From assembly GCA_032358255.1 (NCBI GenBank), contig JAULBX010025796.1:1-55719 (forward strand): 55,719 nucleotides of DNA, read 5' to 3'. The notes beneath the pieces are model-generated. The model was not told the origin of the DNA. It worked only from the letters and a program-made list of their open reading frames with translations, and ran no database searches. The number at the start of each line of letters is the position of its first letter. Position 1 is the stretch's first letter. Made by a program: the position numbers and the translations under genes. Source of the stretch: Heterotrichella gracilis. Lineage: Eukaryota > Sar > Xanthophyceae > Tribonematales > Xanthonemataceae. Shown here one piece after another: positions 5,331-22,143 of this stretch.

Positions 5331-6184
5331 TAAATATTATCGGCATTATTGGAAAGCAACTGTTGCCCCGCCATCCCATGCACTATGGTGGGGCAACCCT
5401 GGGCAATCAGTGGAGGTTTTGAAAGATGTGGAGAACGGTGAAGCATGAGATTTTGCACTGCAGTTCACATGTGTATCTATACTGGGCATGCAAGAGACAT
5501 CCCAAGCCTTTGACTCCACTTTGTTTCTCCTTCCATTTCTAGAGCTTTTACAGAAAGTCCTGTAGTGACTAGCCTAACACGGGTACCATTGCTTCAGAAA
5601 GGAAGGAAGCAAGGGAACGCACAGGGCTTCAAGGTAGGCCTGACCAACAAGCAGTTGAGGCGGGGCGGGATACTTGCCTCGAGCAAGTTCAAACCCACCC
5701 ATGTGAGGGAGTTACGCCATGTTGAAGCTGGACCTGATAAACGTGTTCAACAACCCAACTCCTGTCAACAAGCAAAGAGGTTGAAACATAGGAAATGAGA
5801 AGTCACGGCGTGCTGAACCTGGCACTGGGACTGAATCCATGGACACAAGTATCCAATATACTGCACTCCAAGTTTTCGGAAAGTGGCATGCATAGTATCA
5901 TGGCTTGTACAACCAGAAGTGTTTGTTAAGCAAGAACCCTCCAGGGAACAAAGAAAGCACCGAAAGTTAGACTAACAAAGTGGACGTAGACAGGTGGTAC
6001 ATTAGTAGATAGTGTTGGTAGCAAAGGCAGCATATTGGTAATATACAGGAGCACTGTAGTGCATTTACTTCACATTTTTAAACTAGACATAAAATCACCA
6101 CCCAATGGGCACCCATCCAAAGGGCACCCATCCAGATACCCGAGGCCGCTTGCTTGAATTGTTTCACGAGCTTTACTTGGCCAC
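5331..6184. other. Intergenic between the two SPOC-like genes
   Basis: This is the presumed promoter of the short paralogue plus the 3' flank of the large gene, both transcribed leftward. A short motif at about 5600-5628 resembles one at 3484-3512, which supports a tandem duplication of roughly 2.1-2.4 kb. I see no gene. Confidence 0.5.
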
Positions 6185-9100
6185 TCAGCCAAGGGGTGCA
6201 TCATAAAGCTGTATTGCCAGGATGGCATGCTGTGCGCCTGCCAGTGCTGACTCCAGGCTGGCGCGCTGATCCTGCAAGGGGAAGGTGTTGGTTAGGGTTT
6301 GGTGAGGGGTTTGCAAGTTAGGCGATGGTTGCTTTGCAGTGTGCAGGAGCGCAACGGCAAGGCAAATCACACTTGCAGCTCATGAGTGGTCACCAACATC
6401 AGTGCACAGCAATGCACAATGCTGCACGTAGGCCAGCCCGCATCGCATACACCCTCGCCGGGGTTACAATCTTCACAAGGCGGCATAAAATCACCAGCCG
6501 CACCTCAGGCAGCCAGGCCTTGACAGCTCCCGCCAAACCCCTATCAGGATGGAACAGCAGCAGGCAGGCAGGATTGCAGCCTCCAGGCCCAGTAGCCGCA
6601 CCCACCCCCTCCACCACAGCCACCTTCTTCTGAATCCGGAGGGTGGTGGTGCGATGCGCCATCCAGAGGGCGCCAGCTGAGTCATCCTGGTTGCGGCTGA
6701 CCATGTACACCCCCCCTGTCCAGCGCGCCGCCAGGTCTCTGGGGTCAAAATCGCGCTCTGGGGAGTGGGCGGAAACCACCAGATTTGGTGGCAAATGCAG
6801 GGGTCCTAGCTGTGCCCCCCAGCTGCGCATTGCACACCCCACAGTGCCTTGGTCGAGGGTGATGCTACCCTGCCACACCTCCTCCCCACCCAGATTAGCG
6901 TCCATGGGCGCTGCAATACCCTCATTAGGGTCTTGAGCATCAGCCTGGGCCATGGCTGGTGGTGGGTCTGGTGCTGCTGGCTGAGGCTGCGGGGTGGGTG
7001 CGGGCGATGCTGGCGGGGTCTCCAGGGGTATGAAGTCCAAGGACGTTGCAACGCCCTCATCATCCTCCTTGGGTGCGGGCGATGGCGGGGGGGACTCTAG
7101 GGGGATGTAATCCTGCAGAATGAATGGGGGGGAAGTTGGTGGCAATCCCAGGGGGGTGTAGTCCTGCAACAAGGTGAGTAATTGTGATGGATACGGATAA
7201 AATATGAGGACTTGTTGATGGTGGTATCCTTGTGACCTTGAGTGGGCATATATGATGGGTATAACTCTATTGTAAATGAAGCCATCACTGGCCAACTGTA
7301 CTGCAGCATGATTATACGCCTGGTGCGTTCAGATGTGATAGACCTGGGGTAGAGCCACGCATGGCACGTTAGAGTAGCCTGGTGGGTGTGCACTTCAATG
7401 AGGTAAATGTAGCCTGGAAGGGCGAGTGGCTCACGGGCACTAGAAACCTTTTCACACGTGCTTATGTTGCCTACCTGCGATGAATCCTCGTCGTTATGTG
7501 GGCACATCTGCATTGCCTCATCGCCAGCTCCATCATCTTCACCACTGCCAGTGCCATGACCCATCAGGTGAGGCGGCAGGCACTCCATGGCAGATCTGCC
7601 ACCTTTCTCCTCCCCTGCCCTCACCGCCCCTTGGCTGCCCTGCTGCACTCCCCGTTCCTCCATTTGATCATTCCCCCCTTGCACACCAGGCACAGCTGTC
7701 ACTGCTGCCAGTGTGATGGGAGGAATACCACCTGGAGGGTCAACCGCTGCATTGCTGGCATCCTCTTTCGCAGGCTGACTGCCGCCAGCGCCTCCCTTGT
7801 CCCCAGCAAGCTTCTCCACCTGGTTTCCCTCCCCAGACGCTGCCGTATACCTTCTCTTCCCTGATGAACCCGGATGTGATCCACCCGTCAGGCAGCTGTC
7901 CCCAAAATGCCCTCTCAGTGATGGTGATGGGGATCGTGGCCGTTTTCCCCTGCTGTCCCTGTCATCCCGCGAGCTTGACCTCCTCCTGCCCCTGCCATTC
8001 CCCACCCAATGATCCACAGCAGACAACTCCAAGGCCCCAGGTAGTGATTTCCCATCCCCAGAATTCTGCTTCCCATTCCCAGCCGACTGATTTTCATCCC
8101 TGGCTGCCTGATTGTGATCCCTGGGTGCCAGGTTTGCATCCCCATGTCCCAGGCATTGCTGTGGCTGGGGATCATCACAGCACACTTCAGCCAGTGCAAT
8201 ACACTGTTTTGCCTCATCCACAAGATGCTGGGGAGGGCTGAGTAGGGCTGCTAGGAGGGTATCGTGCCCATCGCCACGCAGCACTTCCAAAGTTTGTGAT
8301 GCCATTGAAAACCCCCCCTTGACAGACAGGCGAGCCATTGCCAGTACCGATGCCAGCGCCTGCAACAGCATAATCAGGTGCAATTAGATGGGCCAGGATT
8401 GATACAGCCAGCAATTAGGTGAAAGGAGGTGTCAGCACCAATACCAGGTACCAAATACCGGCCAGGGATCAGGTGCAAGTGGGTGCAATCATCAAGCCAG
8501 TGTCAACGCAAGTGCCTGCAACTGCTTGACAGCAATCCTCTTTCAATAGGAATGTATTTCCAAGGCCCTATTCCATGCAAATATCCTGGACTTATCATCA
8601 AATGATCATCATCAACATCAGGGCAATGCACAGTGTCTCTCCCTGCCCAGAGGCCCCAGCACCCCTACCTGTCGCCTGGCCAAGCCGTATGTTGCCTCCC
8701 CCAGCGTGATCCTCTCTGCATTCCCCCCCTGGCGCTGCCGCTCGCACAGCGCTGACTGGTGAGGTGTGGGAGCATCTGACAGGTGGCACAGAGATACACG
8801 GTAGCCTTCCTGGGTGGGAGAAAAAACAGTGGGATTAGAAAATGGGCAACCGCAATGTATCACCAGCACAGCTCAGGGGCCTTGTAAGGCACTGTCATTC
8901 TAGGGATTAGGGTCCTATAGCCCATGATACCAGGTACTAGCAAAAGTAATTCTGCAGGATGTTAAAGAGCACAGCTTTGAGTAAGCGTAGCTTTGGATGA
9001 AAGGTAGAGTATGGCGCGAATGATGGTGCGGGGTGCTCGGGAGAGGACTTGGCTTGCATTGGCTTGTAAGGTGTGTGCTTGTACAGTAGAAAGAATTTGA

Positions 9101-12100
9101 TGGGAGAGTTGCAAGGGTGCCATGGCCAGCGATGCATTGGCTGCAAAATCGCCCCACAGACAGTGAACATTTGGCAATACAAGAATGCCCGACATATCAT
9201 AGAAGCGACCATCAATAATACAGCACTCACCAGGACTGCCCTCTTGGGCCTGGCACCCGACCACATTCGCTGCATGCAACCAACTATTGACCGCCCTGTC
9301 CCCCTCTCACCTCTAGTTCCAGTTTCACCCCCTGCAGTCCCGCTCCGCCCTGCCCAAACACCACCCCCCTGACCTTGAGCAGGCGGGGGGCGCCACCTGG
9401 CATCACCACCTCAACCACATGCCCACACACAAGTGACAGCTGGCAGCCCCAGGGGAGGCATCTGGCAGCCAGGCGCTGGCAATCTGTGGCAAGGGAATGG
9501 GGAGGGGTGAAGCAGGGGAAAGCAATCTGTGTCAAGCGGAAAGGAAGTAAATACAGTGGAGTGCAATATATGTAAAACTACAGACAAAAATAAAACAGGG
9601 GATGGCAAGGATCTTGCATATGTGCACACAAATGCACAGCAGACGCCCATTATATAAACATGCGCGGCAGAATTCACTCCAAACCCTCCGTCAGGGTTTG
9701 CACGTACCCTGCATCACTTTCTCCGCCACCAGCAGCCCCTGCATCCCTCCCCGGGACAGGTACAGCCGCCGCAGCACAGCCTGAGATTCCACAACAGCCA
9801 CATCCCCCCATCGAGGCGCAACGGGTTCGCTGCCCACACCGCCTCCATTGCCCCCTCCCTTGCTGCCATTGGCAGGTGCCTGGCTGTGAAGCTGTGCGCC
9901 AGGGGGGTTAGACGCGCGCATGTGCGCGGGGGCGTCAGGGGGCCCGCCATTGGCTGCCGCAGCGGTCGGCTTGGGCAGAGGTGCGCTAGGGCGGGGTGGG
10001 GATGGATGGGGAGCCTGGAAGCACATGGTGCCTTTGGCTGCAGCAGGCTCTGCTGCGGGGGCCAATTTCGCGCCATCTGGCGCCTCCCGGACATTGCCAC
10101 CTGTCCCAGCTGGTTCTGAAGAAGCCCCTGGAGGGATCCTACGCTGCGCTGAGCTGGCGACACTGTGTTCGGGCGCGCTGCTTGGAGGCACGCCACGCGG
10201 CTTGAACGCGGCAGCGGTGGGCCCTGACGCAGGGCCCACGCAGTCGCCAGAAGGCGCCGTTTTGGGCCGCGCAGCAGGGGCGCCATCGCTTTTACCAGGT
10301 GGCGCCGTTTTGGGCCGCGCAGCGGAGGTGCCTTTACCCTTACCAGGGTTCAGCAGGTACATCTTCTTGGCGATGATGGCACCCTGTTTGCCCACCACAG
10401 ATGGGCTGGTGTCCCCTGGCGAACATAGTCGCCCCACAGCGCCAGCTGGCACCGGAGTGGTGGGGGCTGGGGAGGAGGCACCCCCCGCCGCTGCGTCCTC
10501 CCCTTGCGTGGTGATGGCGCGCGTGGCGGTGAAGGTGGTGGTGACTGGGGCTGATGCCTTCATGCGCGGTTTGGGGGCTGCGTGGGGCAATGGTGGGGGT
10601 GCAGGGCGAGGGGGGACAGCTGGCGACTGCTTGACCTCCCCACTGGGGGTTTTGTGATGTGTCCCCTTGACGGACAGGCCTGCTATGGTGTCGCAGCTGG
10701 CTGGTGGGGTAGCATCGGCCAAGGGGAAGATTGGCATGGGGCATTCTGGAGGGGGGATGCCTGTTGTCAGGCGGGGGCTGGCCCGGGTGCCTGGACGTGG
10801 GATTTTTCGGGGGAGGCCAGCTGGCTTGTTCCCGGTGGGGATGGGTTTGGTGGCGATCCCCTTGCCAGGCAGGTGCAGTGGGTTGAACACGCGCTGCTCC
10901 CCGTTGGTCGCGCCCTTTGCATCCCCCTTGAGCTTGAGCGCGGTTTGCTGTTGGGTGGCTGTGGGCTGGCCAGCTGGCGGTGCTGCTCCCTCACTGGCTG
11001 ATGGGGCAGTGCATCTGCCACTGCTGGCTGGTCGCTCCTCATTGCCCACCTCAACACCTGGGGCACAAATGAATATGAAGAAAATGTCAATCCTGGCAAA
11101 TGGTAAACTGGGCAATATCAACAACAATATTGGACACCTGGGGCCCAGATCGATCAGGCTGCCACAGGTCAGTTCCAGACCCTGCAATTGGGGTTCCCAT
11201 CACACATCGAAACCACATGTGTAACAGGATAGAGCTCCTCGGCGCCGCATTTCAAAGGTTGACGGCTGATCTGGCGGCATTGCTGGAATGCATGCCAAAT
11301 CATTCACATTTCCTCCCATTGCATACATATGCACACTCACATGAATCTTGTCCAAGCCTGTTTTATATATACAAACACCCTGGCAGAAGCCCTAGGCTGC
11401 ACTTAAAGGATTCAACTAATAGATAACTACATCTAATGACGAAAGCGCGTCGCACTCACCAGCACCAGGGTGTGTGATTCCCCCCTTGGCAGATGATGGC
11501 TTTGGGTTCCTCCCCTGGCAGTGGGCCTGTAGCCTCAGGAGTGCCTCGGGGCCAAACTGCATGCAAGGGGTGTTATATAAGCAACATATATTTGCTTTGG
11601 TTTGGGGGAGTGATACAACAATCACATTTAAGTGTCAGCGATGTACATGTATTTCAAGCGCCCTGGGATTGAACCAAGTACGCGCCCAGGAAATTAAAAG
11701 TGCGTAAGTGCAAGCTGTGGTGGACACCAGGCAGTGCGCAGGGTCGCGCATTGCACCACACACCCAGTTGACAGACAGATTCTATTACAAGATAAACATA
11801 ATCTATAAACTGCAATGGGCCAATCTATGTTCCCGCCAGCCCCAATGGTACGCAGGCCAAAACCCTGTCAACCCTGCAAGCTCAAATCCTATATACCCTT
11901 ATTAATGGCCACAGACCCCACCTTGGCTTCCAATCGCTCCTTTGCCTGGCGCACAGCCAGCCTCACCCGCGTGGCTGCTTGGGCAGGCCCTGGGACCTCC
12001 CCGTGCCATCCCCGGGCCTGGGCTGCTTGGTAGAAATCGCACAGTGCGCGCTGGGCAAGGGGCTGGGACACGCCGGTGGGGCAGCTAAACACAATGGCCT

Positions 12101-13757
12101 TGCCCTGCAGGTACAAGGGCAGTGGTTCAGCTGGGCGTGGGGTTGACACACAGTGGCCTTGCACGTTTTGCACACTGTATTCCCCCCTTGCGCTGAGGGT
12201 TTGTGGTTCAGTGCGGGCAGGTGAACACAAGGGCCTCCCCAATGCAACGAAGAGGTACAGGGTGTTACAGTCGCACACTGTAACACCAAATGCGCGCTGG
12301 GCTAGGGTTTAGGATTAACTGTGCTGGGGAAGTCTATTGTGATGAGGGTGGTTGAGTGTAGGGCAACCAGAGTGGCTTGCCGGGAAGCATTTCGGCCACT
12401 TGGCCATTCCGGCATTCCACTCACCATGCAGATCATCTCCAGCTCGTCTCGAGCCACAGCCGCCTCCACTGGGTTGGCAAACCCACACACACTGACTTGC
12501 ACGCGGCTGGGGCGGCCGACTGACCCGAGGCCAGCAGGTGCGCCGTCCAGCCCCACGCCGTTAACCATCATCCTGCACATCCACGAGACGCCACCCTCCT
12601 TGGGTACCTGGTAGACGTTCCTACGCGGATGGCAACGACCCTAAGTTAGGGTAAGGTTGTGCAAGGGCCCATGTGCAGGATGGTTGTGCGGTGGTTTCTG
12701 TGCAGCTTGCACCGCCACGCATTGACTGCCAATCTGGCTGAATTGCTATAATCCATGTAACTACATGATTGAACACCCAGACGGAATAGCACATTTATTT
12801 TATCTAGCCACAACCATACCACATGTCCACTTACTTGTATGTGAAGGCCTCAGGCACATGCTCCTTCAGCAGCGGCGCCAGCTCCACACCCTCAGTGGCC
12901 ACACCTGGGCTGCCAGACCCCACTCCTGACCCACCCCCTTGGACCGCTTTGCCCTCTGCCGATCCTGGCCTTGCGTTGGCACCTGTGGTTGCCACCTGTT
13001 GGCTAGCTTTGCATCCTGCCAGCCCTTGGTTAGCATTGCCCTTTGCCACCCCTTGACTTGCCCTTCCCCCTGGCCCCTCTGCCGGTGCGCTTCTACAGAT
13101 CGCCTCCATCCCATACTTCACCACCTGCAGGATAAAATTAAAATAAAAACGAGAATGGCTAGCACTCGGGTACATTTGTAGGGATTCTGAGTGTGAGGTT
13201 TGTTTGACCTTCCTACGCATGCATGCATGGTACTTGCTTTTCCTCCCCTGGGAATGGCTTGTGGTCCATAAAGTTTGGGGCAGACAACCAAACCATTATA
13301 TAATTGCCCCTGCTGTCAATGTGTGTAAGGGGCATTTCGGATAAGCCGTCATGTTGCATGTCCACCGTCGGCCCCCTCCCTCCCCCACTGCCACACCACT
13401 TTTTACCCATTGGCCACCGACACCACCGCCATTCCCAGAGGAAAACAAAGCTTGGATAAAAACTGAATATCGATAACCATCACCTGTTTTGGGGGTGCTG
13501 GCGCCACTTCCCCGGCCATCCCAGCTGGCGGGTACCTTTCGTCTGTCTTGGCAATGACAGCTGCCACCCGCGCATGTGCCTCTTCAAGGGAAATGACACA
13601 GGGGAGGAGGAACTGCTGCAGGGCAGCTGCCGCTGCTGAGGTGTCAATGGCGTGGCCCCCTGCGGGGAAGTACAGCGCCTCCACCTGCAATGAGCAATTA
13701 AGGTTAATGCTTTAGGCTTTAGGGTTTTGCGTGCCACCTTGCGTGCCCCCCTACACA

Positions 13758-13795
<38 letters not shown>

Positions 13796-16700
13796 ACAAA
13801 ACTACAGTGCCCTCCACTTGGACAAGTCAATTTCTCGAGTCTTCATACCCCCCATGACTGCAGCGATTCCCCCAAAAGTAAGCAGCAGATATTTGGCAAA
13901 TCCCCACACAAAAGCTCCGACTACAATCCCGAAGGCAATTCCATGTTTCCTGCCTTATAATTTATAAGTTATGAACGAAACGCTCAAATGAAGATCAGCA
14001 GGACTGGTTTGCTAGAAAACAATTTGTTGTCTATGTGATCCATTTCACAAGCATATTACCGACCACTGCTACCTCCACCATCAACAACGGTAGCTCAAAG
14101 GCAGACTGTCTCACCTGGACATCACAGATGGGCCTGTTCAGTTAGCGCTGCTGCATATTTTTAGGACTTCCTTATCGATGCCCCCAACTCTACACCACAA
14201 GCGCAGCGGGTGCACCACACACGCCTCCACAGTGCTAGGGTTTTGGGTGTAGGGTTTCCTTACCCGCGGCTCCACTCTGCAGTGCAGCGCATCCGCCGCC
14301 ACACACGCTTCCACAGGAGTGGCCAGTCCAGCCACATTCATGTCCCGCCCCTCCCGGTGTACCCGCGCGTAGCAGTTCTTTGCCCTCCACGACACACACC
14401 TGCACCAAGGGGCGACAAACAGCTGAAGGGGGGTATGGAAGGACCAAGCACTGGACCGTAAACCCTAAACCCTGTCCCTCTATGACAACCTGGACAGAGC
14501 GGTGGATTCTCGGCGGGAGGGATGAAGCGATCAGTAATGCAGAACTGTAACCCCACAGAGTGTACTTTCCAGTGACAGCTGGGGTTGTATGCAGCAACCA
14601 AGCATCAGCCCTTACTCGTGCACCATGCCTTAAAGAATTAGGGTATCCCCAGCCGAGTGCCTGGGGTAGCCTTGCAGACAGTTGTGCCATTGGTCACTAA
14701 TGTCCATTTTCCTAAACATGCAGTGCTTGATTACTGCGTGGCGCTGCTAGAAAGGCACGCGTGGCAGTGCTAGCAACCCATGCAGTGGCCAACCCCGTGC
14801 CATTGAATGCAAGGTCTCCTTTTCCAGGGGCTGACCTCGGTGAGGGTGTTTAGGGTATAGGGTGCGCACCTGAGCCCATATTTGCTGCCTCCGGAAGAGC
14901 GTACACCCTTTTTCTTTTCCCGAGCAGCATTCTCTGCCAGCTGGCGAAGGATTGCCAGAGCCTCCTGGGAGCAACCCACCCTCTCATCCACACACTGCCC
15001 CTCCTCACTCCCCCTGACAGAAGCACCACAGTAGCTGTCGTCACTTTCTGCCTCAGAGCTGCTTTCCTTCCCTCCCCCCTCCTCCCAGTACCCATCATCT
15101 GCAGCGCCCCCCTTGCCACCAACTGCGGGTAAAGCACCCCCGCCCCATTCCTCCTCCCGGCCCCCCCAATCTGCATCTGCCCCCTTGTCACCACCCTCTG
15201 GAAGCACACCACCACCCCCATGCTGTCGCTGCTCCCTCTCAGCTTTCCTCCTCAGGTACGTTTCTGCCCTTCCGATCGCCCCCTGTATGCGCCCCTGCGC
15301 CTCCTTGTGGCTCAGATGCTGATTCGCCTCCATGCGGCAGTACTTGATCAGGCTGTGGGTGGCGGTGGCGACGTCGATGGGGCTGGGGCCCTTGCTGGGG
15401 AAATTTGGCGGGGTGTCCTGCAGGGGAGGGCATATTATGATGAATGACGCAAGCAGAATTCACCAGGTTGTGGATGGCAGTGGCAATGTCAATGGGGCTG
15501 TGGCGCTTGCTGGGGAAATATGACAAAGATCCTAGGGGTACCTTGCTGGGGAGCATTTTCAGCTGGAATTTCACCAAAGATTCAGAGAGAACCACATATC
15601 ATTTAATTAATATGCATCATGAATGCGGCAGTACTTCACCCGGAGGTGGGTAGCCATATTGGTGGGGCTGCAGTGACCTTGCTGGAATAGGCCAGACGGC
15701 AGGCGACAACTATATCCAAATTGGATGGCCTAATTTTCCAGCATAGATGCGACCTTGCACCATACCCCACTGTTAAGTCAGCACTGTGCCATTGACCACC
15801 GCATTGACCATCTCACATCTCCCCCTCCCAGCACATCGAAACCACTCACCTTGTCCCCTGACACCCCTAGCAGCACATCATATGCCACTGCCGCCTCTAC
15901 AGGGGTGTCCAGCCCTACTGCGGTCCATGTGACACCAGATCGCACAAGCGTCGCAGCGAAGCCAACCCCTGACCTCTTCACACCCCTGCAGGCAGGCAGC
16001 GGAGTTGGCCATGCTGTGGGTGGTGATGCTGGTGATAGTTATGGTGGGCTTAACGCGCAGTAGAGTAGCAATGCAACATGTTGACCAATCATGACGCTGC
16101 AAGAGATGATGATGATGATGGTGGTGGTGCTCTGTGCAAAGGGTTAACCAAACGTTGTAGCAGGGCTGTTAATACTACAAATCAGATGTTAGTACTATAT
16201 ATCATTCCTGGTGTATAGTGCTATCACCCCTGGCTGCAGCGATCCTGGGCTTCACGTTAAAGTGGATGGGAATGATGCTGACTGGATGGGGTTCAAAGTA
16301 ACAGATCAAGAAAGGTGCACACCACTGAATTAACCAACGAACTACCGCTTGCGTACGGTCATTTCATCACAACAGGGCAGCAAACGTCACCAGGAGCAGG
16401 GGCCTGTCATCTGGGGTGTGGGTTACAGCAACGCACCGATAGCCATGTTTGAACTGGGGTAGTCTGGAATCCTCATCCACTTCCATCATCTGTTTGGAAG
16501 CATCCACAGTGGGAATTCCCTCCCCTCGTTCCTCCTCCTCCTCATCATCATCCGATTCCAGCAGAACCACTCGCTGCCGCCTCTTTATGCTGGCTCCCTG
16601 GGGACCACTGCCTCCCTTTGGGATGAGCTTTGGTGCAGCTGGGGATGCACCATTGCCTCCCTTGGGGATTGCCGCTGGTGCACTTGGGGACGCCGCACTC

Positions 16701-19700
16701 CGCCCGGTCCCGTTGGCACGGCGAGCAGCTTTCTCCACCAGGTAGCTCTCTGCCCTGTGCACCGCCCGCTGCACGCGCTGTTTCGCCTGTGCGAGGCTCA
16801 GCTCCTGGCCTGCCTTGCCGCAGTGCAGCACCAGGTCCCTCACAGCAGCATGCGAATTAATCTCCCCTTGGTATTTGCTGGGGAAGTTCTGTAGCGCTTC
16901 AGGGTCCTGCATCCGCCAAGCGGCAAAAGGGTCTGGGTATTGGGCCAAGGGTCTGGGGTTTAGGGTTTGGGGTCACAGAGGAAGTTGTGTCGCACATCCT
17001 GCACCCGCCACGTGGCCGCCAAGATATAAAAGCCCCAAAAATTGCTGACGTATTGAGATAACCCCCAAAGGAAAATGCTAGCATGCACACAATTATATCA
17101 AGGCTATACCAGCGACACATCGTTGCTCAGGTTTAACTTACCGCAAAAAAATATAACAATGGACATGGCCGTGGTTGATTGTCTAGAAGAACCTTCCCAG
17201 GCAACATGGGCTGACCCAGCTATTCTGGCCCTTCAAGCGCGCAAATTCAGTAGCAGTACAAGCAGTGTTTGCCAGACCTGCCTGGCGCCGCATGTATAGG
17301 GGGTTGACTGCTAACCTTCGGCTTTAGCGGGAATGCATGATTTTACACACATAAAAGCAGTATGCATTACTCTTTCTTTAAATCATGATCATGTGTTGAT
17401 TTTATCAACATTGAAACCCATTATGTTCCTCTGCCACCCACCCACCTTCCTCCCAGACTGCTGCAGCAACACATCATGCACCACAGCAGCCTCCACAGGC
17501 GAAGCCATCCCCACCACAATCCACATGCCGCCGTTGACTCTGATGTAGGCTGAAAAGCGCTCCTCGCCCACCTCTTTCAGTTGCTTGCTGCTGTAGGTTT
17601 TGACTCCCCTGCATGGCATGGGAGTCCAGGAGGTGCAGGAGCGTGTTGTGCTGTAAGCAGATTTTAAGCAGGGTTTTAACACTTCACCTTATGCGATGTG
17701 CTGTAAGCAGAGTGTAAGGGATGGATGGCAGAGGGCGCGAAGTTGGCCGAGGTCCACCAGCATAGGGTAGCAATATGGGGTTAACCCTCCACACATGAAA
17801 ATGAACTCACCACAGAAGTGATATTTCCCCCTTGACAATGGGGGTGCCAGGGTGGCAACAGTAGAGGGCCCTTGGCTTTCTACCTTAAACCCTAATATAA
17901 TTCATTATTCGATTGATTAATTGAAATAAGCTGGTATTCACCCTCCTCGTACATGTCCACGACTTCTACTGTTTAGGGTTTAGGGTTTAAGGATCGAGTG
18001 TGCATGCTAGCCATAGCTGGCTGTCAAAATTCTCAAAGGAACTGAACCGATGACACATTTAAAAACCAGGCCTGATCCACATGGCATGGCTTTATATTAC
18101 CTTTGAAACAGACTCTTGGTGGAAATGGGCGATGCTTGCTGTACAACACCTGCTTAAGCTTATGCTTGCTGTACAACACCTGGGGAGGCAAGTCAAGGCG
18201 TAGGGATTCTGTAACCCACCTGTAGCCATGCTTGTTCCTTGAGGGCTTGTCCCCGGTGGCCTTGGGTAGTAGTGATGCCACACCATGAAGACCATCCCCT
18301 GGCACTCCTGCATCAGAATCCCCCCCTGCGTTGCTGCCCCTGACCGCATCCCCCTCCATGTGTGCCTCATCACCATCGCCCCCTTGGTCAGCATTTGCTC
18401 CCCCCCGCGACCCACCACCACTGCCCCTCTGCCTCGCTTTGCTGCTGGCCATGTCTCCACCCATGTGTGGCCCATCATCGTTGCTCCCTTGGTCAGCATT
18501 TGCTCCCCCTCTGGGCTCAAGAACTGTGCCCCCCTGGATGTTGACGGCTGTCATCAATCGTCTGCTGCCAGCTGGCTGGTGGTGAGAGATGCCCTCAAGA
18601 TCACGATCAGGCTCAACCAGGCGTAGTGCACTGGCAACTGGCTTGTGGTGAGAGATGTCATGGAGAGTCCGGCCAGGCTCATGATCAGCCAGGCGCAGTT
18701 GCCGGGCGGCAGCTGGTTTCTTGTGAGGGGTGTCACCAGAGCCATGACCATGCTGATGATGCGCTGGGGACGGTCCCTTGACTGCTGATTTGGGGTCCAA
18801 GATGGCATAAAAATCACGATCAGGCTCGATATCAGCCAGGCATTGCCCCTTGACAGCTGGCTTGTGGGAAGAGATGACATTGCAATCAGCATCCGGCACA
18901 GGATCAGCCAGGAGTGGGAGTGGCTCTGGGGGATCCCTGGCAGCCGGCTTGGGATCAGCAATTCCATCGGAATCAGCATGAGGCTTGGCGCAGCCTGCTG
19001 CATCGGCGCTTGGTGATCCCTGGAGTCGGCAGCAATCATGATCATCATCATCATCTGCGCTGGAAGAGTCACTGGATGATGAGGAGCTGCTGCTGTCATC
19101 GTCGCTGGATGATGAGGAGCTGCTGCTGTCATCGTCGCTGGATGATGAGGGGACACTGATGGCTGGTGGCAAAGCCTCCTGTGGTGGTACATCCTCCCCT
19201 GTTTTAGCCGTAGAACACGCGCTCAAATGATGGATGAAAGTGCAAAAGTTTATTCGAGCAAAACAAGTGAGACTAAGTGATTTTGAAAAATGCTTACACC
19301 CTAAACCCTATCAGTTTAAACTGCTTAGTATATTGTTTGGATGGATTTTACTACTTCTACCCGTGAACCCCATGCAAGATTCCTGGCACCGTTGTCCCAC
19401 ATGTTTATCACACCTGCCACCGATGACCTAGGTGACTCAGGCGGCTTCAGCCAGCTCCCCTCCCCATCCAGATACTCCGCCGCCCTCCATATCGCTTCAT
19501 TGATGCGCCGCTTGGCCTGCTTATCGGTGATATCTTCCCCATGAAGCTGCTGGTACTCTGGCCGCAGGTGTAAGATGGCAGTTGCCGTCACCTCGTTTGC
19601 GTTGCCGGTGAAGTTGTCGATCCAGTCCTCCTGAGTGTGGTACGCAGCAGAGGCAAAGGGTTTTAGTACTTACCCGACTTACCAAATAAAGGGGGGGAAA

Positions 19701-19966
19701 TTGCCAAACGGTTTTCGTGTTTGACAATAAAAAATCTTGCAAAAATCTTGTAAGGTTCAGGAGCATATGCCTCCCCTCCCATCCAGTATTAACTCACGTC
19801 ATCCGGTTCGACTCCTGCCTGTTGCATGATGAGGTCCCGAGCCATGGCTGCTTCCACGTCGGTGGAGAAGCCCCCTAGCTCCCATTCCCTCCCTTGGTGG
19901 CGACCGCTGGCGAGGAAAGTGGTGGCGCCACCTGGCTCTTGCACCAGCTGCACCCCCTGCCAGGGT
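6185..19966 (-). CDS. Giant modular protein: five AP2-like domains, H modules, RS-rich region, SPOC-like domain
   Basis: Exons in transcript order: 19798-19966, 19414-19630, 18220-19198, 17811-17879, 17446-17608, 16437-16906, 16055-16096, 15850-15985, 14870-15417, 14552-14578, 14264-14399, 13484-13684, 12835-13124, 12425-12620, 11922-12104, 11460-11556, 9708-11057, 9311-9483, 9231-9269, 8669-8809, 7475-8359, 6504-7163, 6185-6271. All phases agree over about 2,418 codons. The first exon begins in phase 2, so at least one 5' exon is missing. The small exons 16055-16096 and 14552-14578 are the least certain. The layout is AP2-like plus helical module plus disordered acidic or Ser/Pro-rich linker, five times; then a 450-residue Pro/Ala-rich exon, a basic RS-like nuclear-type segment, three D-(Y/F)-(T/I)-P-L repeats and a SPOC-like domain. 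I infer a nuclear DNA- or chromatin-associated regulator. It could instead be two genes, but unbroken phasing argues for one. Confidence 0.65.
6504..6880 (-). other. SPOC-like domain of the giant gene
   Basis: This is the 3' part of exon 6504-7163. Landmarks are VWQGSITLD, CAMRSWGAQ, LPPNLVVSAHSPERDFDP, WTGGVYMVSRNQ, WMAHRTTTLRIQKKVAVVEG and LLLFHPDRGLAGAVKAWLPE. Upstream in the same exon lie three D-(Y/F)-(T/I)-P-L-x-x-P-P repeats. A final 28-residue exon (6185-6271) follows. The family call is by pattern only. Confidence 0.5.
7475..8359 (-). other. RS-like basic and linker exon
   Basis: An 885-base exon in phase 0 on both sides. It starts with helical sequence (ALASVLAMARLSVKGG; LVDEAKQCIALAEV), then a basic Arg/Ser stretch (GRGRRRSSSRDDRDSRGKR) that resembles an RS region and a nuclear localisation signal, then Gly/Ser/Glu-rich linker. 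Confidence 0.65.
9708..11057 (-). other. 450-residue Pro/Ala/Gly-rich disordered exon
   Basis: A single 1,350-base exon, phase 1 to phase 1, coding mostly Pro, Ala, Gly, Ser and Lys with a repeated A-R-P-K-T-A-P-(P/S)-G motif. Its last 50 or so residues become structured (VAVVESQAVLRRLYLSRGG) and continue into exon 9311-9483 (GHVVEVVMPGGAPRLLKVRG), which I cannot assign to a family. Confidence 0.65.
11922..12104 (-). other. Helical module H5 (exon)
   Basis: It codes GVSQPLAQRALCDFYQAAQA and AATRVRLAVRQAKERLEAK, a divergent copy of the H module lacking the F-P-S-K lead. Decayed partial copies of its 5' edge lie at about 12141-12165 and 12205-12235 in the preceding intron. Confidence 0.55.
12425..12620 (-). 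other. AP2-like domain 5 (exon)
   Basis: It reads VPKEGGVSWMCRMMVNGVG, then an inserted Gly/Pro/Ala loop, then VQVSVCGFANPVEAAVARDE. The loop between strands is longer than in the other copies. It runs from phase 2 to phase 0. Confidence 0.6.
13484..13684 (-). other. Helical module H4 (exon)
   Basis: The exon codes ALYFPAGGHAIDTSAAAAAL and ISLEEAHARVAAVIAKTDER, aligning with the F-P-S-K...I-D and L-S-x-x-x-A-x-x-R-V pattern of the other modules. It runs from phase 0 to phase 0. The linker follows as a separate exon at 12835-13124, rich in Gly, Ala and Gln. Confidence 0.6.
13751..13790. repeat. (AC)n microsatellite
   Basis: A near-perfect AC dinucleotide run lies in the intron before module H4. 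Confidence 0.95.
14264..14578 (-). other. AP2-like domain 4 (two exons)
   Basis: Exons 14552-14578 (27 bases, tentative) and 14264-14399. Together they read KVHSVGCVSWRAKNCYARV, then DMNVAGLATPVEACVAADAL, close to the AP2/ERF pattern G-V-S-W-x-x-x-x-x-x-W-x-A-R. The intron after it begins with telomere-like CCCTA-type sequence just past the donor. Confidence 0.6.
14870..15417 (-). other. Helical module H3 plus Gly/Glu/Ser linker (exon)
   Basis: The exon begins DTPPNFPSKGPSPIDVATAT, continues with LSHKEAQGRIQGAIGRAETYL, a long Gly/Asp/Glu/Ser linker, and ends S-K-Y-G-L plus a phase-2 split codon. It is homologous to exon 16437-16906. Confidence 0.7.
15461..15541 (-). repeat. Decayed intronic copies of the H3 exon start
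   Basis: The first 75 or so bases of exon 14870-15417 (original 15345-15422) recur at 15461-15541 about 116 bases upstream in the transcript sense, still coding F-P-S-K...P-I-D-I-A-T-A. A third, more decayed copy lies at about 15644-15690. All are within the intron between AP2-like domain 3 and module H3. Confidence 0.7.
15850..16096 (-). other. AP2-like domain 3 (two exons)
   Basis: Exons 16055-16096 (tentative) and 15850-15985. The second codes GVKRSGVGFAATLVRSG, then TAVGLDTPVEAAVAYDVLL, the clearest AP2-like signature in the gene because it keeps the A-Y-D of the helix. Confidence 0.65.
16437..16906 (-). other. Helical module H2 plus acidic linker (exon)
   Basis: The exon begins DPEALQNFPSKYQGEINSH, continues with the helix ELSLAQAKQRVQRAVHRAE, then has Ala/Pro/Gly-rich sequence, a basic patch (KRRQR), an Asp/Glu run and F-K-H-G-Y-R at the exon end. 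It runs from phase 0 to phase 2. Confidence 0.65.
17446..17879 (-). other. AP2-like domain 2 (two exons)
   Basis: Exons 17811-17879 and 17446-17608. The best-preserved part reads ERFSAYIRVNGGMWIVVGM then SPVEAAVVHDVLLQQSG, closely following the AP2/ERF second and third strands and helix. The intron falls at G-V-K in phase 2. Confidence 0.6.
18220..19198 (-). other. Ser/Asp-rich acidic linker exon with 39-base coding repeat
   Basis: This exon codes about 325 residues of low complexity. At 19053-19152 a 39-base unit repeats about 2.5 times and codes alternating Ser and Asp runs. Downstream there are repeated His-Lys-Pro-Ala and His-Gln-Pro-Ala blocks. The exon ends in K-H-G-Y-R split at phase 2, the same boundary used by linker exons 16437-16906 and 14870-15417. 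Confidence 0.7.
19414..19630 (-). other. Helical module H1 (exon)
   Basis: This is the first copy of a module found after every AP2-like domain: a short N-F-containing lead, a helix (ATAILHLRPEYQQLH), then I-T-D-K-Q-A-K-R-R-I-N-E-A-I-W-R-A-A-E-Y-L. The shared pattern is (L/I)(S/T)xxxAxxR(V/I)xxA(I/V)xRAExYL. I do not recognise a named family. Confidence 0.55.
19798..19966 (-). other. AP2-like domain 1 (exon)
   Basis: The exon codes a three-strand plus helix pattern: WQGVQLV, ATTFLASGR, EWELGGFST, then the helix DVEAAMARDLIMQQAG. The G-F/L-x-T-x-x-E-A-A-x-A-x-D signature is that of AP2/ERF domains. The start of the domain lies in an unidentified upstream exon. It ends in phase 0, as do all the other AP2-like exons here. 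Confidence 0.6.
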
Positions 19967-22143
19967 CTGTACAAGGGGGGAAGGGTGAGGAAATGGTCGG
20001 AATGGGGAGGTTGCAGTGGCTGCCAGTGGCTGGAAGGGTGTATCAGGGTTTGCAAGAGGGGTTCAATGGCAGACGCAGGCCTTAGGAGTGGTTCAAGATG
20101 TGTCAAGGGTGCAAATAGAACAACACTGAAGTGCACGTTTTCTTGCGGTGGTCATCCAGCTTTGCACGGAAGGTCAATGCTATTGAAAGAATAAATTGGG
20201 GACCTCTAAGGACGTCAATTTCGTTGCAGTTCATATGTCAATGCTGTGCAAGTAGGGTGGGTGACATGTCTTGCAACACCCTAAACTGAACCCTACACAG
20301 TGGTGAGTGCACCTGTCTTGTGCCATAGCTGGCAGGCGCCTGCAGCCTACTCAGTGGTCGACCATGCTGGCGTTACATCCACCTGAGTACCACGTAAAGC
20401 GACAGAGTGGGCCTCCTTGCTGGTTGCCCAGTGTCCGAGTGATGCAGGCATGCATATACGTGCAAGGTAGTAGGGCAAGGGAGGTGTGACAATGGCAAGC
20501 TTTGACACCACAGGCACTCGATGGTTTTCCAAGCAGCACAGAGAAGACGGGAATGGAAGTTCAAAGTGCAGGGGAGCCAAGGCAGGTGGGAGCGAGGACA
20601 CTCTGACTACTGCCACCAGCAAACGGTGGGGACCCAGCATTCATGGCCTGGGTCACATGTCGTTAGGTAGCTCGGTGCTCAACAGTGCAGCTGTGTTGTT
20701 TGTTGACGTTGAAAGTACCTGTGTCTTGCCTGGTTTCTCGGGTAGGACCGTATTGGTCCTCGGCTAGGGGTCTAGCTGCTCAGTTGGTTCTGAGTGGCTC
20801 GCCCTGCACAAGCCACTGGCTTGCAGACTTGTTCAAAATACGAATACAAAGCCGAATACCTTACAGCGGAAGTTACAGGTGTCTATAGCGCCAAAGGTCA
20901 ACGTTTTGGCCAAGTTCCCAGTGGAACTCGCCAGAAAAAGTCGCACATACCGGTGAGCTTGCACGCCCAACGCAGCAAACAGTGTGAACTACTGGCTATA
21001 ACTGCAACTGGGATATCAACCGGCAATCAATAAGGGCTAAAGTCTTGCTACGCTGCAATTTGTTGCCTGCAAACTTCTCAGAAGGCTTCGAAGTGTCCCC
21101 GTCAGATAGCTGTATCATATCACCCTGTTTGTCATGACTTGCAAGTCTAGTTTGCAGGCTGCAGCTGGCAATAAAGCTGCCAAGACGCGGTCTCGCCGTG
21201 TTTGTAGGAAAGGCTGCGTCCTTGCTGTGTTATTAAAGCGCTGTGGGGCTGACACCGAGCTCCCGGTTACTACATACATGATTGGGATGGTTTGATTGGT
21301 GTCCCCACCCTCCGGGCGAAGTAGCCTTCGCTGAGCACACTTTTGAAGCGGTACTAGATTAAAAACGTCTTTGCTAACTGGAACACTGTGACTTATCAAG
21401 AGGGACCGTGGGGTTCGTTGCAGGTCCCCACCACCCACCACCCAGCTGGGTAGGATGTCTCCCACTTCGTGCCCTGTCGAATGTCTTCTTGGTTGTTCCT
21501 TATGACTTTTCTAAAGCGCTGAGGGAGACTTTGCTTACCGTGCGTGAGGTGAGCTGCAACGCATATCATGCACTTGGCCACCCGTGCTCTATGTACTGCC
21601 CCTTGATCCAGCTCGAACAGGGTCCTGGTAACAGGATCCGACAACTATCACTCTGTAGGCTGCTGATCCAAAACCCGTGTATGCCACATCTATTGCCCAT
21701 GTCACACCATGTGGTACCCAACCACCTGTGCGCACCCTAGCACCTATATCTGTAGGTAGCCTAGGGCTGTACTGTGGTCCTGTTTACACCCTACAGCCTT
21801 AACCCTAGCACATGTACCCTGTGATAGCCTGCCTGTGCACACACCACTTCGCACACTAAGTGCAGGCCACTGGGCGCTTGTATCCTATCAAGGTACCTAG
21901 GGGCGGAACCTATCGCACCATACGCCATGGCCTGCCCAACATTGCTGCCCTGATTTGGCTTTGGTCACAGGTAGCCCCTACCACCACCACCACACACCAC
22001 CACCACCGCCACCACCATTGCCACCACCACCATCACCACCGCCATCACCACCACCACCGCCACCACCACCACCGCCACCACCACCACTGGGCCGCCCATG
22101 GTCCCAGGCCGCTCATAGCCACAACCACTGTACCTCCTCACCA
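19967..22143. other. Divergent intergenic region, missing 5' exon(s) of the giant gene
   Basis: This should contain at least one upstream exon of the giant gene (ending in phase 2) and both promoters. I could not pick the exon out with confidence. The reading frame upstream of 19966 stays open only to about 20151 and has no ATG. No other family is recognisable. Confidence 0.45.
21978..22090. repeat. CAC/CCG-rich trinucleotide repeat
   Basis: An imperfect CCA/CAC/CCG trinucleotide run lies about 50-160 bases upstream of the start of the Cys-rich membrane protein. It gives spurious His- or Pro-only frames, which I do not count as coding. Confidence 0.9.

Follow-up and report, generated by a model that had tools for sequence, protein, structure and literature searches.

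AP2 is a DNA-binding domain of plants and apicomplexans in which three strands and a helix with the core EAA..D (PF00847) form a unit that also occurs in many-domain arrays. In green algae, arrays of three and of seven AP2 domains appear in excerpts of one report (PMC7811268), and CsuAP2-007 of Coccomyxa subellipsoidea carries seven according to part of another (PMC4982375). Here, we describe a locus on the minus strand of a 55,719-nucleotide stretch of Heterotrichella gracilis DNA (contig JAULBX010025796.1, called C328 or the window, from a genome of 68.5 Mb; other loci, C542, C608, C420, C133 and C414 among them, are also named by contig) in which five AP2-like exons alternate with a helical module, H, and the C-terminal end combines a conserved region with an RS-like basic stretch and, last, a compact SPOC-like domain. 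We put a probability of about 0.5 on the locus being one large gene of an expanded family, whose array binds DNA in the nucleus and whose conserved C-terminal parts recruit the transcription or RNA-processing machinery. For the family as a whole, the reading that fits best is that of nucleic-acid-binding arrays restricted to one lineage, whose C-terminal part is conserved.

The earlier note on this DNA had called AP2 arrays of this length fused to SPOC an unfamiliar architecture. Length does not set the locus apart: besides the seven-AP2 gene of C. subellipsoidea, the same genome holds two canonical AP2 array loci, C599 (~5500-15100) and C699 (~5600-12900), with five and six exon matches, respectively, at an expectation value (E) <=0.001, and about ten each by eye. 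What stands out is that a degenerate AP2 is paired with a helical module, that this unit is fused to the C-terminal parts and that the whole forms a gene family. No H module was seen in the two canonical arrays, and neither the composite AP2-H unit nor its fusion to a SPOC-like end was found in searches of open-licence papers.

An exon chain and its paralogues

Read from 19966 to a stop at 6185, the minus strand yields 20 exons and 2,372 codons, joined by GT-AG introns with the phase kept throughout (Table 1). Doubt attaches to E16 (9269-9231), which would follow an intron of just 41 nt; without this exon the chain has 19 exons and 2,359 codons and meets no stop. The earlier note had traced a minus-strand chain over the same span, and this was rebuilt in phase together with the five AP2-like exons, the exon after each of them that opens with the helical module, the long low-complexity linkers, the RS-like basic stretch and the compact C-terminal domain; its counts of at least 23 exons and about 2,418 codons were not reproduced. 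The guanine plus cytosine content by codon position is 0.695/0.554/0.629 in the exons and 0.489 in the introns. No start codon lies in the first exon, so the gene must begin upstream of 19966, in one or more exons that the chain does not include. At the other end, a read-through to a stop at 6399-6401 was considered and dropped; the last exon (6271-6185) is conserved in paralogues.

Table 1. Exons of the window gene (positions in the window), with their content and main matches
Exon	Position	Strand	Content
E1	19798..19966	-	AP2-like unit 1; score against the canonical AP2 profile reached by 0 of 1,813 reported shuffles (2,000 made)
E2	19414..19630	-	Helical module H1; no match among paralogue loci
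E3	18220..19198	-	Long acidic and Ser-rich linker; its end, KHGY(R), opens AP2 unit 2
E4	17446..17608	-	AP2-like unit 2; 0 of 1,811 shuffles reach its score
E5	16437..16906	-	NFP motif and helical module H2, then linker ending KHGY(R)
E6	15850..15985	-	AP2-like unit 3, fold predicted; 0 of 1,590 shuffles reach its score
E7	14870..15417	-	NFP motif and helical module H3, linker ending KYGL(R)
E8	14264..14399	-	AP2-like unit 4; score reached by 10 of 1,745 reported shuffles; has counterparts at C542 and C608
E9	13484..13684	-	Helical module H4
E10	12835..13124	-	Linker ending AFTY(K)
E11	12425..12620	-	AP2-like unit 5, with insertion; 4 of 1,329 reported shuffles reach its score
E12	11922..12104	-	Helical module H5, divergent
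E13	11460..11556	-	Short exon, linker
E14	9708..11057	-	Pro-rich linker; conserved C-terminal region starts in the last ~30 codons
E15	9311..9483	-	Conserved C-terminal region
E16	9231..9269	-	Doubtful 13-codon exon; preceding intron 41 nt
E17	8669..8809	-	Conserved C-terminal region
E18	7475..8359	-	End of conserved C-terminal region, then RS-like basic stretch
E19	6504..7163	-	Pro-rich stretch and most of SPOC-like domain
E20	6185..6271	-	Last exon, with the end of the SPOC-like domain and the stop; kept in both C542 paralogues

Sequence similarity links five arrays: the window gene, two tandem arrays at C542 (C542a and C542b), one at C608, whose contig ends before the SPOC-like exon, and one at C420, where two AP2-like and two H exons lie within the 3 kb examined. 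C133, whose AP2-like and H exons were recognised by motif only, is probably a sixth; it gave no match to C328, C542 or C608 at E<=1e-3, and its H query found itself only. Between two and five AP2-like units were seen per paralogue, with some loci read in part. BLASTP of reading frames between loci (threshold E<=1e-3, best E 6e-27) gave ordered one-to-one counterparts of E8, E9, the end of E14, E15, E17 and E18 at C542 and C608, and one-to-one counterparts of E19 and E20 at C542. For units 1-3, H2 and H3, the matches to AP2-like or H exons at the paralogue loci are not one to one; the exons of units 1-3 all have the same paralogue unit as best match, and searches with unit 1 or unit 2 alone missed the paralogues. 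E2, E3, E10-E13 and E16 have no match at this threshold in the paralogue loci and rest on open frame, splice sites and phase. In other organisms, no homologue was found at E<=1 among 5,894, 61 and 2,978 candidate proteins, which is not proof of absence. A family fragment at C414:27584-27995, with two C-terminal exons in reversed order, is a rearranged remnant.

The paralogue exons are under purifying selection. Between C542a and C608, the ratio of nonsynonymous to synonymous divergence (dN/dS) is 0.41 (95% bootstrap interval 0.32-0.52, 483 codons), and the window gene stands at 0.44 against C542 and 0.45 against C608 (NG86, 183 codons each). Exon-level dS against the window gene ranges from 0.19 to 2.2: E15 and E17 lie at 0.19-0.46 and H4 and unit 4 at 1.1-2.2 against C542 and C608, and the end of E14, a separate piece of 32 codons, has dN 0.30 and dS 0.26 against C542. 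Such unevenness suggests gene conversion, exon shuffling or mixed ages, and makes ratios for single exons unsafe. The rival reading, in which several genes or a partly decayed locus have been mistaken for one gene, seems to us distinctly unlikely. Such a reading could point to a chain read from genomic sequence alone, to units 1-3 and linkers without one-to-one counterparts, so that ordered counterparts cover the downstream half only, and to decayed or partial copies that do exist (the out-of-frame last exon of a copy at 4785-3862 and the reversed exons at C414); against it stand the ordered counterparts of six exons or exon parts at two other loci, the lack of any stop in 2,359 codons and the purifying selection itself. 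We take the locus to be one large gene and infer a single transcript.

AP2-like units and the helical module

That the five repeats derive from AP2 is supported by profile and fold tests, as the earlier note had proposed by eye, though the Pfam AP2 model matches none of them. A profile search of the PDB with the repeat profile returned only three matches up to E=10, all of them AP2/ERF sequences, and against the canonical AP2 units of the same genome the repeat profile scored above all 200 column shuffles. AlphaFold2, a check suggested with the original claim, gave unit 3 an AP2-like strand-strand-strand-helix fold at a predicted local distance difference test score (pLDDT) of 92.5; the nearest structure is a plant AP2, and one of the top structural matches is a mitoribosomal chain of Toxoplasma gondii. 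PF00847 matches 0 of 15 family units at E<=1, no window unit among them, and its 19 matches in the genome at E<=0.001 do not include C328.

The 15 aligned units (the third C133 unit at ~46790, the first C608 unit at ~8300, the C542 unit at 6932-7105 and C420 are excluded, and the two C133 units were chosen by motif) keep the AP2 scaffold and vary on one face. We take residue numbering in the style of AtERF1, anchored on the position of D187. In the helix core, E181, A182 and D187 never vary and V180 and A185 hardly do; of the RAYD-type residues, D187 and A182 are each present in 15/15 units and tyrosine 186 in 1/15, position 186 being free in the family (3.0 bits) and tyrosine or phenylalanine in canonical units (0.65 bits). 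Strand 3 is hypervariable, unlike that of AP2/ERF: columns 169-174 carry 2.7 to 3.3 bits in the 15 units versus 0 to 2.5 bits in 12 canonical ones, a descriptive contrast between sets that differ in size and relatedness. At the columns of R170 and W172, presumably the DNA-contacting strand residues of AtERF1, no residue is conserved among the 15 family units, and the 12 canonical units vary there as well. The strand part has a mean net charge of +4.1 (range -1 to +9), compared with +3.8 (+1 to +5) in canonical units. As in AP2/ERF, an NFP motif follows the helix in window units 2 and 3; of the five window units, these same two carry the YRG element, which spans a splice junction.

The changes fall mostly on the face that would contact DNA or RNA. 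A conserved scaffold whose face varies and yet stays basic is the pattern expected of diversifying nucleic-acid recognition, or else of relaxed constraint. The latter would make the AP2-like units a protein-protein scaffold that has lost nucleic-acid binding, which we consider quite improbable. Of the three classes compared between C542a and C608, dN/dS is highest in the AP2-like units, at 0.55 (0.36-0.84) versus 0.34 (0.22-0.52) for H and 0.31 (0.19-0.49) for the C-terminal region, and the family has lost strand residues 173 and 174, which hardly vary in canonical units. The fastest evolution of the AP2-like units is only a trend, because the class intervals overlap; their interval stays below 1, the helix core is invariant in all 15 units, and the mean basicity of the strand part matches that of canonical AP2, all of which speak against such a loss. 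AP2 and H parts diverge fast and the C-terminal region less.

Binding of RNA rather than DNA, perhaps in an organelle, has a precedent in the mtAP2 proteins of Myzozoa, which bind fragmented mitochondrial rRNA according to excerpts of PMC11652630 and, as the present family may, put the AP2 fold to use beyond DNA-contacting transcription factors. The same excerpts place mtAP2 among the smallest ApiAP2s, unlike the giant array with RS-like and SPOC-like parts described here. We regard a similar turn from DNA to RNA in this family as unlikely, and continue to favour DNA as the ligand of the array.

The recurrent helical module after each AP2-like unit, absent from AP2/ERF and also claimed earlier, is supported by an alignment of 17 copies from five arrays (C328 5, C542a 4, C608 4, C542b 2 and C133 2, the last by motif), in which one F and two A columns are invariant and one L nearly so. 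No meaningful relative was found with these 17 copies in Pfam (five families with one member each, E 0.029-0.15) or with the five window copies in the PDB (6 matches, best E 0.084). Since H shares an exon with NFP, AP2 and H are read as one composite domain. A partial duplicate of the start of H3 (~15515-15440, within 15598-15242 of the minus strand; 54% identity over 28 residues) lies in the E6-E7 intron and is perhaps a dead or alternative exon.

The conserved C-terminal parts

The region formed by the end of E14, E15, E17 and the start of E18 is the best-kept part compared; its exons are 62 to 91% identical between C542 and C608. A resemblance to Plus3 (PF03126), good by eye, was not borne out: 7/200 column shuffles reached the score with four Plus3 sequences and 161/200 with two, in a test of low power (effective number of sequences 1.3), and Pfam gave no Plus3 match to the region.

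The last domain exists in four copies with 49 to 54% identity to the window copy. A search with the C-terminal exon revealed two relatives at C542 and another on C328 just downstream of the gene, where a second SPOC-like copy (4785-3862, minus strand; 45% identity to the window gene and 64-66% to the C542 copies) has its last exon out of frame relative to the paralogues and looks like a decayed partial duplicate. C196 and C429 are not taken as relatives, since their matches cover the Pro-rich stretch that precedes the domain.

Its kinship with SPOC (PF07744: FPA, PHF3, SHARP/SPEN, RBM15), proposed by the earlier note, is unproven, and we call the domain SPOC-like without filing it as SPOC. Its N-terminal W-x-G strand, LP motif and late hydrophobic strand line up with those of SPOC when 104-105 columns are aligned. 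The paralogue profile scored 23.9 against SPOC over 105 columns (E 0.003; best null 22.7, 0/200 shuffles), and 24.6 against six SPOC sequences (best null 21.4, 0/400 shuffles) over the first 36 columns only, at a probability of 12%. Several results weigh against the assignment. Against SHARP and RBM15 alone, 14/300 shuffles reached the score; none of four paralogous copies matched PF07744 at E<=10, C328 was not among the PF07744 matches in the genome at E<=1, and a PDB profile search with the SPOC-like copies gave no match. Some tests of the single sequence (Pfam, BLASTP, profile, shuffles and AlphaFold) used the unspliced read-through end: the profile gave a probability of 0.4, with 49 of 698 reported shuffles (1,000 made) reaching the score, the AlphaFold model was unusable (pLDDT 29.8), and BLASTP found no similarity to the FPA-like SPOC at C8, a true SPOC of the same genome. 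With the single sequence, Pfam and the PDB likewise lent the assignment no support. Finally, all four copies carry a histidine, in a register set by eye, where SPOC has the arginine that anchors phosphoserine (PHF3 R1248 and SHARP R3552, in excerpts of PMC9834408). The PHF3 and SHARP domains read phosphorylated polymerase tails, as parts of PMC8526623 and PMC9834408 describe, and with the arginine replaced this function is not simply transferable.

A possible role for the array

The protein would consist of five composite units, each a divergent AP2-type domain with H after the usual place of NFP, joined by long disordered linkers and ending in the conserved C-terminal region, the RS-like stretch and the SPOC-like domain. 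That an array of basic-faced AP2 folds would bind nucleic acid is the firmest of these steps; each unit may contribute a short contact with DNA in the nucleus, a location that the RS-like and SPOC-like parts suggest along with contact to transcription or RNA processing. The C-terminal parts, better kept by paralogues than the array, might then bring in the transcription or RNA-processing machinery. Given an AP2-fold array and such C-terminal parts, the protein probably anchors a conserved effector at several short sites simultaneously.

KRAB zinc-finger families of animals combine expanded paralogues, variable nucleic-acid-facing residues, an invariant scaffold and a conserved effector part. 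By analogy, confined to logic since the domains are unrelated, ours could be a fast-evolving, lineage-restricted family of sequence readers on the AP2 fold, in which a fixed helix core supports a hypervariable but basic face and unit number differs among paralogues. In such an algal counterpart, a conserved C-terminal effector would link recognition with RNA polymerase II or with RNA processing; we give this extension low odds. Its targets would possibly be mobile elements.

If the proposed role holds, the AP2 fold has taken another evolutionary route, in which the scaffold is kept, the face diversifies and each copy gains a helical module. Whether algae run expandable families of sequence-reading proteins would then become testable, and Pfam-based AP2 annotation can overlook such proteins entirely. 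As minor observations, 43 exon-level matches in the genome to the chlorophyll a/b-binding family indicate a photosynthetic eukaryote, and several introns within 6185-20000 contain short CCCTAAA-type (plant telomere-like) stretches, for example near 17980, 16970, 14240 and 12310.
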